Origin: Rubrivirga sp. SAORIC476
Lineage (GTDB): Bacteria > Bacteroidota > Rhodothermia > Rhodothermales > Rubricoccaceae
NCBI RefSeq assembly: GCF_002283555.1
Contig: NZ_MVOI01000003.1
Location: 1,538,798-1,602,797 of the forward strand
DNA: 64,000 nt
Direction of reading: 5' to 3'
Shown here: one piece after another, positions 61,954 through 64,000 of the stretch
Position numbering within the stretch: the stretch's first letter is position 1
How the letters are laid out: each line of letters opens with the position of its first letter
Notes under the pieces: model-generated
Told to the model about the DNA's origin: nothing
The model's input: only the letters and a program-made list of their open reading frames with translations
Database searches by the model: none
Translations under genes and position numbers: made by a program

Positions 61954-62109
61954 GGGAGCAGCGGAGGGGGGCAGCCAACTTACCCGGCCGTCCCGGCGAC
62001 GGTCCGCGAAGTCGCCGGAAGCGCTTCGGCTGTGAGCACCGTGCCCCGCGAACTGCCTGACCGTGACCGCCTGGCCTCGATACACTGTCCCTCCCGATTC
62101 CTGCCCGCG

Positions 62110-62652
62110 ATGCGCCTCGCCTTCCTCTGCGCCGTTCTGCTCGCCGCGCCCACCAGAGCGCAACCCGCCATCGACGTGTCGGGCGCGCTCGGAGGCGCTG
62201 TGACCGCGATGTTCGGCTCCGGCGTCATCGAGGGCACCACGGGGCTCGGGACGGTGTCGGTCGCGGCGTCGCCCGACCTGCCACGAGGCGTCCGGCTGGC
62301 TGCCTCGGTGACCTACGGCCCCGGCGACGACCGCGGCGTGGACCGCACCCTCGCGCTCGGCCTCGGTGCCGAAGCCCCGCTCAGCGGCGGGCGCAACGGC
62401 GTCTACCTCGCCCTCGGCGGCGCGTGGCTCGACTTCGACGGCCGTGACTCGTCGGGCTGCACACCGGAGGTCGGGTGCATGGACGAGAGCGGCGCGCTCG
62501 GGCCCTCGACAGGCCTGGCCGCGACGGTCGGGCTCGGCGCACGAGTCCCGGCGGTGCGGCGGCTGTGGGTGGAGCCGACGGTCGGCGCGATCATCGGGGG
62601 GAGCGGACCGCTACCGACGGCCCGGCTCGGCGTCGGCTGGCGCCTCCGCTGA
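62110..62652 (+). CDS. Small outer-membrane beta-barrel protein
   Basis: A 180-aa exported protein with a signal peptide of about 18 residues (LLAAPTRAQ). The mature part alternates polar and apolar residues in short strands (GLGTVSVAASPDLPRGVRLAASVTYG, GVYLALGGAWLDFDG, AATVGLGARVPAVRRLWVEPTVGAII) and ends in TARLGVGWRLR, as in small OmpA/OmpX-like barrels. One disulfide is possible (SGCTPEVGCMD). No specific family. Divergent from ppc (156 bp). Confidence 0.7.
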   Translation: MRLAFLCAVLLAAPTRAQPAIDVSGALGGAVTAMFGSGVIEGTTGLGTVSVAASPDLPRGVRLAASVTYGPGDDRGVDRTLALGLGAEAPLSGGRNGVYLALGGAWLDFDGRDSSGCTPEVGCMDESGALGPSTGLAATVGLGARVPAVRRLWVEPTVGAIIGGSGPLPTARLGVGWRLR

Positions 62653-62728: not shown

Positions 62729-63646
62729 TCACCCTCCGACCGCGGCCTCCAGAGCGGCGACCGTCTCCTCTACCCGGCCCAGGTCGGCGGGACGCGACAG
62801 GTCCGCCACCCGGACCGACGCCACGAGCCGTGCCACCGGCGCCACCAGCGAACCGCTGACGGCCGCCCGGAGGAAGCGGGGCGCGTAGACATGGGCGAAG
62901 ACGGCCGAGAACGCCGCCGACGCGGTGAGCGGCGTCACCTCGATGGCGTCGCCCCAGCCGAGCGAGCAGACGAGCGCCACCGGGGCCTTCGCCTCGGCTG
63001 GAGGCGCGCCGTGCCAGACGCCTTTCGCGAACCCGTCGACGATCGGCTCGACCGCGTCCGACAGTCCGAGCACCTCCGAGGAGGCGGGCCACAGCTTGAC
63101 TTGCGTCGGCCCCGGCCGGACGCACGCGCCCTCCTCGTCCAGGTCGAGCACCACCAGGTCGTCGGTCAGGAGCCGGTGGCCGCGCGCGACGAGTGCCGCA
63201 GCGGCCGTCGACTTGCCCGCCCGTTTGGGGCCGAGCAGCACGACGGCGCGCCCGTCGACCTCGACCGCGCTCCCGTGGAGCGTCAGGAGCCCACGACGAT
63301 GCGCGAGAATGCCCAGACCCGGACCGGAGACGCACTGGCGAGCGAACGCCTCTTCCGAGGTGTCCACCGTGATCGCGTCGGCCTGGATCCGGAGGCGCGT
63401 GCCTCGCTTCCAGGCGATGACGTCCCCGTCGCGGCCGGGCCAGCCGGAAAACCCGCCCGGCGCGAGGGCGCCGGGCGCCACGACGGCCCCCCGCTCGATC
63501 ACGACATCCGGGTCGCCGGCACTCGAGACCGGGCGGAGACCCGTCAGGTCCAGCGACGACCGAAGGCGAAACCCGAAGGCCTCGTAGGTCTGGGTCTGGT
63601 CCTCCTGCGCAGCGGCCGAGCCGGCTCCGTAGAAGGACGAGGTCAC
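62729..63646 (-). CDS. HPr-kinase-like protein, probable lasso-peptide tailoring kinase
   Basis: A 305-aa protein related to the C-terminal domain of HPr kinase/phosphorylase. The P-loop is GPKRAGKS at 139-146, preceded by LTLHGSAVEV with the conserved His124 and followed by HRLLTDDLVVLD (metal-binding acidic pair near 158-163). It lacks the N-terminal HPrK domain typical of carbon-catabolite control. GTG start overlapping the stop of a lasso-type precursor gene. Such kinases (PadeK/ThcoK type) phosphorylate the C-terminal Ser of lasso precursors, and the precursor here ends in Ser. The function is inferred from family and linkage. Confidence 0.8.
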   Translation of the reverse strand: MTSSFYGAGSAAAQEDQTQTYEAFGFRLRSSLDLTGLRPVSSAGDPDVVIERGAVVAPGALAPGGFSGWPGRDGDVIAWKRGTRLRIQADAITVDTSEEAFARQCVSGPGLGILAHRRGLLTLHGSAVEVDGRAVVLLGPKRAGKSTAAAALVARGHRLLTDDLVVLDLDEEGACVRPGPTQVKLWPASSEVLGLSDAVEPIVDGFAKGVWHGAPPAEAKAPVALVCSLGWGDAIEVTPLTASAAFSAVFAHVYAPRFLRAAVSGSLVAPVARLVASVRVADLSRPADLGRVEETVAALEAAVGG

Positions 63647-63828
63647 GAGACCCCTCCTCCCCCGATCGACTCCCCGAGCGCATCCAGAGGCACAGGCCCC
63701 CCGCCTTCCGTCAGCGTGTGGAGCGTGCCCAGGTCCATCACGGCGGGCGCGACGAAGGGCCGGCGTGCGTCGGGCGCGGAGGCGGCGTCGGAGGCGAGAG
63801 GGTCGACGGTCGAAAGGGAGGGCTGCAC
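63643..63828 (-). CDS. Putative lasso-peptide precursor
   Basis: A 61-aa peptide if started at GTG 63828 (an upstream GTG at 63924 would give 93 aa and overlap the preceding gene). The leader (1-41) carries PFVAPAVMDLGTLHTLTEG, fitting the lasso leader pattern Y-x2-P-x-L-x2-L-G-x5-T-x-G, with Phe25 for Tyr and Val30 for Leu. Thr40 is at -2 of the predicted cut, the hallmark for the leader peptidase. The core would be residues 42-61: Gly42 and Asp49 could close an eight-residue ring, and the tail ends GGGGVS with Ser61. The GTGA overlap couples it to the kinase gene. Confidence 0.75.
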   Translation of the reverse strand: MQPSLSTVDPLASDAASAPDARRPFVAPAVMDLGTLHTLTEGGGPVPLDALGESIGGGGVS

Positions 63829-63869
63829 GAAGTCGGGGGGAGGGAGTCTGGAGAGCGAGGAGAAAGTGG

Positions 63870-64000
63870 TCAGGCAGACGGCTGGGAGCCGCTCCGAGCC
63901 TGCGCGGCCCAGCGAGCCAGGCACACAGCCCGCAAGAACGAGGGCGCGATCGGCTCTCGCAGGTGAGGGGTGCGCATCGCCTCGCGGTAGGTGGCCTGGA
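63870..64000 (-). CDS. C-terminal end of an upstream gene (partial)
   Basis: The last 42 codons of a minus-strand gene whose start lies beyond the window. Readable end: QATYREAMRTPHLREPIAPSF, then LRAVCLARWAAQARSGSQPSA. Third positions are GC-rich and the frame is open to the edge. The stop is 41 bp before the GTG of the lasso precursor. A helical LxAVCLARWA ending would fit the C-terminus of an asparagine-synthetase-like lasso cyclase, but 42 residues cannot decide this. Confidence 0.5.
   Translation of the reverse strand, partial: QATYREAMRTPHLREPIAPSFLRAVCLARWAAQARSGSQPSA

Follow-up and report, generated by a model that had tools for sequence, protein, structure and literature searches.

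The window, 64,000 nucleotides of the Rubrivirga sp. SAORIC476 genome (G000:C3:1538798-1602797), lies on a 2.16-Mb contig that runs on for ~560 kb beyond it, and ends part-way through a lasso-peptide locus. In what follows, A is the precursor, B1 the PqqD-like RRE protein, B2 the transglutaminase-like protein, C the cyclase and K the kinase. G000 is the source genome, G002 and G003 are congeners, and G029 is a more distant member of the same order. The features of the locus within the window are:

62729..63646, minus strand: HprK-like lasso kinase K, 305 aa, with His124, P-loop Gly-Lys145-Ser and Asp162-Asp163
63643..63646, minus strand: GTGA, in which the precursor stop and the kinase start overlap, read from the sequence
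63643..63828, minus strand: lasso precursor A, leader MQPSLSTVDPLASDAASAPDARRPFVAPAVMDLGTLHTLTE (from a predicted GTG start), core GGGPVPLDALGESIGGGGVS
63870..64000, minus strand: 3' end of the gene for lasso cyclase C, of the asparagine-synthetase type, which extends beyond the window

On the minus strand the precursor gene closes with ...DARRPFVAPAVMDLGTLHTLTE, then the core GGGPVPLDALGESIGGGGVS, then the stop codon, TGA at 63643-63645. The marks of a lasso precursor—leader motif, Thr(-2), a small first core residue, and Asp or Glu at core positions 7–9—are all present, in the form F-x2-P-x-V-x2-L-G, Thr(-2), Gly1 and Asp8, together with a C-terminal Ser, Ser20 of the core. Phe stands in place of the Tyr or Trp of the [Y/W]xxPx leader motif in this precursor and in those of G029. 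Most likely the gene begins at GTG 63828, ~40 nt past the cyclase stop (63870), which would give a product of 61 aa with a 41-residue leader; the start given in the ORF list, GTG 63924, falls within the cyclase gene. A sequence-only reading had described this short ORF, with its leader pattern, Thr(-2), Gly1, Asp8 and C-terminal Ser, and its GTGA overlap with an HPr-kinase-like gene; all of this is found in the minus-strand translation, the kinase ORF (62729-63646) overlapping the precursor stop with its GTG, an arrangement suggesting that translation of the two might be coupled. The ring of this precursor contains neither Ser nor Thr. Its tail (ALGESIGGGGVS) lacks a bulky aromatic residue to serve as a plug, where the tails of its relatives carry Phe, and because of this the product could possibly be branched-cyclic, or easily unthreaded.

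The neighbor proves to be an HprK-like lasso kinase with an intact catalytic motif, much as had been proposed. It matches Pfam Hpr_kinase_C (5.6e-9) and, with a score under the family cut-off, NCBIfam HprK_rel_A; its predicted structure (pLDDT 89.8) matches those of PEPCK and HPr kinase. H124, GKS (K145) and D162-D163 are invariant in alignments of 17 and of 28 homologues, and correspond, as we read them, to the His-Lys-Asp-Asp motif that PMC9266682 and PMC10368454 describe in lasso kinases. Where lasso kinases have been characterized, they phosphorylate the linear precursor at its C-terminal Ser (PMC9266682, PMC8498205) or, in Bradymonas, at Ser3, in the ring (PMC10368454). Here the predicted site is the C-terminal Ser20, because the ring of the G000 precursor has no Ser or Thr and because the C-terminal Ser, singled out by the earlier reading, is the only Ser conserved throughout the family (5/5 intact precursors). 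Ring-Ser phosphorylation of the Bradymonas type was set aside for the first of these reasons.

The cyclase gene lies directly upstream of the precursor, so that the order is C-A-K, all on one strand. It reaches ~65618 in window numbering (L006:1871-3619) and encodes ~582 residues that match Asn_synthase (2.3e-48) and GATase_7 in Pfam, with the PP-loop SGGLDSS retained; against NCBIfam lass_lactam_cya the match is strong (6.4e-95), yet under the curated cut-off. Upstream of C come a 100-residue ORF without a known family and then an NYN-domain gene. The ORF (L006:3751-4053) has a twin-arginine-like N-terminus, and matches neither a family nor anything in the compared loci. B1 and B2, which a lasso cluster normally contains, were found neither in the 16 kb upstream of the window nor in the 20 kb that begin at window position 62000. 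The expectation that B1, B2 and C would all lie upstream, past 64000, thus holds for the cyclase, which is immediately there, and fails for the B genes.

Where, then, are the B genes? Family searches of the whole genome return a single PqqD (B1) match and a single Transglut_core3 (B2) match, and the two genes adjoin each other at C6:479902-480740, on another contig and in a different lasso cluster. That cluster is complete: B1 shares a strand with genes for a kinase, a sulfotransferase, a cyclase and a precursor (...RQPWTAPALTTLDLTGETE followed by TGTQDFSSESSFPNDQRYAS, ending DQRYAS), and B2 lies on the opposite one. Since both B genes belong to it, the C6 cluster is self-sufficient and the C-A-K locus is not. 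The two precursors of the genome differ in their leader motifs, WxxP in that of C6 versus FxxP in that of C-A-K. The congener G003 has a cluster orthologous to the C6 one, with a precursor ending ...SESYAS, and lacks the C-A-K locus.

The C6-type clusters have features of their own. In both (L007:6074-10777 in G000:C6, and L061:2060-10182 in G003) the kinase and sulfotransferase genes stand side by side, and kinase and sulfotransferase are also found in L115 (Sediminibacterium), L118 (Acidobacteria), L137 (Opitutaceae) and L145 (G030). For lasso clusters of Firmicutes, PMC8498205 mentions a putative sulfotransferase. The cores of the two C6-type precursors begin with Thr or Ala and share a conserved Glu as their ninth residue. 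The antepenultimate Tyr, in DQRYAS and SESYAS, may be a sulfation site.

The split between a C-A-K locus and distant B genes is not peculiar to this genome. In G002, the cyclase has 48% and the kinase 54% identity to its counterpart in the window, and they form a C-K-A locus at C1:862-866 kb, with a convergent precursor gene (...YRAPELTTLGSIEVLTA followed by GPDSGNLDQIFGGTGGFQDSTS) and no B genes beside the pair; the sole B1/B2 of that genome, at C1:88.7-89.4 kb, are ~770 kb off, inside a complete cluster. G029, too, has a C-K pair without B genes (C5:283 kb), and a motif search found no precursor next to it. Its two intact precursors, at C5:563 kb (...SFEPPTLEQLGVLHEVTG followed by GPGLGTEDAVIFAPGGDPTDDPS) and C20:420 kb (...PFAPPSLERLGALASVTR followed by GPGMTGTQDAVIFQMGGDPSDDPS), are both far from any lasso enzyme, and were found with a profile built from the precursors of G000, G002 and G027, those of G029 being excluded. 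A third copy, L173 (G029:C1:81513), is frameshifted. The only B2 of G029 lies in a complete cluster on C30; of its two PqqD genes, one lies in that cluster and the other beside a kinase on C29. At the latter place (L175:5939-7362) the PqqD-like gene adjoins the HprK-like kinase gene, with no cyclase and no B2 nearby. G027 has a precursor and a B1 and no B2, in an assembly that is 83% complete.

The cyclases of G000, G002, G029 and G027 form one clade (support 0.98). When 114 genomes of the order were surveyed, the precursor family appeared in these same four; the five-row profile contains those four genomes, and the informative part of the result is the absence elsewhere. All five intact precursors keep the RRE leader motif, Thr(-2), Gly1 and the C-terminal Ser, and the ring Asp is at position 8 or, in one, at 9, so that the Thr(-2), Gly1 and Asp8 on which the earlier reading staked its case are conserved apart from that one shift. 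Judged by sequence comparison, the precursor pattern exceeds chance, because the family recurs next to homologous cyclase-kinase pairs, or elsewhere in genomes that have them, and is confined to the genomes of the cyclase clade. Very short orphan peptides, such as RRPFEPPRLEYQGCLTEQTTGVFVFS and RRPFEPPRLEYQGRLTEQTGGGFRFS, were encountered in G050, G056 and G071 (L168, L169 and L171, near position 1500 in each). They combine a lasso-like leader with hardly any core, and are possibly precursors of linear phosphorylated peptides, or relics.

Further afield, a scan of genome contigs with the cyclase alignment brought up relatives at no more than ~35% identity, of use for comparison and not for the closest clade. 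Of the 64 comparison loci that have both C and K, with 4 kb or more on either side, three are missing both B genes: those of G002 and G029 and one gammaproteobacterial locus. The last (L125, contig OY282378.1) is a cyclase-kinase pair with no B1/B2 within 6 kb, and falls outside the four-genome clade.

Between G000 and G002, identity at codon positions 1, 2 and 3 is 0.68, 0.73 and 0.42 for K, and 0.62, 0.65 and 0.51 for C. Third positions are the most diverged, and so both genes are under constraint. The locus does not occupy a conserved genomic place: near ppc, the alignment with G003 stops at about window position 62650, just downstream of K, and the G002 copy is ~270 kb from ppc. A comparison by way of the NYN gene found that gene not to be conserved in the genus.

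How does such a locus obtain a processed leader? B1 proteins grip leaders through the [Y/W]xxP motif and present them to B2; in the paeninodin system B2 does not cut without B1, and in the Bsf system B1 is likewise required (PMC5067487, PMC10368454). In leaders, the RRE motif and Thr(-2) are known to act in binding by B1 and in processing (PMC13381572, PMC10368454). Because both are kept in every intact precursor of the family, B1 and B2 presumably still act on the C-A-K leader; and because the locus itself encodes neither, the simplest account is that the C6 cluster supplies them. The B genes, then, are not upstream of the window, as had been supposed, but apparently shared from the second cluster. 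We consider it probable that the locus specifies a paeninodin-like phosphorylated lasso peptide from a dispersed set of genes, its leader bound and cut in trans by the B1 and B2 of C6. K would phosphorylate Ser20 on the linear precursor; B1 from C6 would bind the leader, with its FxxPxV motif and Thr(-2), B2 would then cut it, and the local C would close an eight-residue ring between Gly1 and Asp8, leaving a Gly-rich tail. One B1/B2 pair would in this way serve two precursors, two dedicated cyclases and two kinases. Gene content, conserved motifs, the lack of further B1/B2 in the assembly and the recurrence in two relatives are seen directly, and membership of the lasso family is well supported; recognition and cleavage in trans, the site of phosphorylation and threading are what we infer from there.

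The single B1/B2 pair of G000, and the repetition of the B-less split in G002 and G029, count in favor of sharing. The difference between FxxP and WxxP leaders counts against it, for the choice of Tyr or Trp at this position reportedly decides RRE specificity in Bacillota (PMC13381572). So do the gaps in the draft assemblies, where a second B pair might hide, provided that the same were true of G002 and G029. Such a loss from the G000 draft (97.5% complete, 19 contigs) would make this an ordinary lasso system whose dedicated B genes lie far off, and this we regard as very unlikely: the locus sits well inside its contig, the 16 kb upstream hold no B gene, and the same absence is seen in the drafts of G002 (93% complete) and G029 (97%).

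Perhaps the locus works with no B proteins at all, K modifying the precursor, a host protease removing the leader and C cyclizing the free core. The title of Zyubko et al. (2019), as cited in PMC9266682 and PMC10368454, has it that pseudomycoidin, likewise a kinase-type product, can arise in vivo with neither leader nor leader peptidase, and the cyclases of G000 and G002 do have a shortened N-terminal domain. But an RRE motif and Thr(-2) would then be needless, and they are conserved in all five intact precursors; moreover, a B1/B2 pair is encoded elsewhere in G000, G002 and G029. We think this unlikely, and are about equally doubtful that the locus is the decaying remnant of a complete cluster which lost B1/B2 and makes no product. 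Remnants might well be missing from a congener such as G003, lie at a synteny break beside ppc, and be accompanied, as in G029, by a frameshifted precursor copy. They would not be expected to retain C, A and K intact in two species whose cyclases have drifted so far apart, to show constraint on the first two codon positions, or to keep the precursor motifs in four genomes.

The system has close relations among known ones, and departs from each. It resembles the paeninodin type (PadeK, ThcoK, SyanK; PMC9266682) in its HprK-like kinase with H-K-D-D, its lasso cyclase, and a precursor with C-terminal Ser, Thr(-2) and a ring-closing acid; it differs in lacking adjoining B1/B2, in its FxxP leader, in its C-A-K order and in its Rhodothermales host. 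Pseudomycoidin (PsmK/PsmN), as summarized in PMC9266682, shares a kinase for the C-terminal Ser, the site predicted here, but its cluster includes a nucleotidyltransferase that adds a hexose, and none was recognized beside C-A-K. The Bsf cluster of Bradymonas also has an HprK-like kinase with the same motif, of a lineage separate from the Firmicutes kinases; however, BsfK targets ring Ser3 of a precursor that ends in Asp, whereas the C-A-K family keeps its C-terminal Ser, and B1 and B2 lie within the Bsf cluster (PMC10368454), whereas the C-A-K locus has neither. The peptidylarginine deiminase of citrulassin is a precedent for a lasso pathway enzyme encoded elsewhere in the genome (PMC12971885), with the difference that what is remote there is a tailoring enzyme, and here the proteins at the heart of the pathway, for recognizing and cleaving the leader.

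Genome-mining tools search for A, B and C as a group, and loci like C-A-K can go unseen or pass as broken. In the literature searched we found nothing on lasso peptides with Rubrivirga, and the papers it lists for Rhodothermus or Salinibacter do not mention lasso peptides; phosphorylated lasso peptides, if our reading is true, would be extended to the Rhodothermales. Sharing of B1 and B2 would be a natural case of pathway sharing where the insulation of leader recognition has been stressed (PMC13381572), and would offer a ready test of one RRE serving two leaders. For the lineage as a whole the chances seem to us about even that a single B1/B2 pair is the hub to which unlinked precursors, cyclases and kinases all turn, in which case two lasso peptides would share leader recognition, with no insulation between them, and precursors could, as in G029, lie hundreds of kilobases away from every lasso enzyme.
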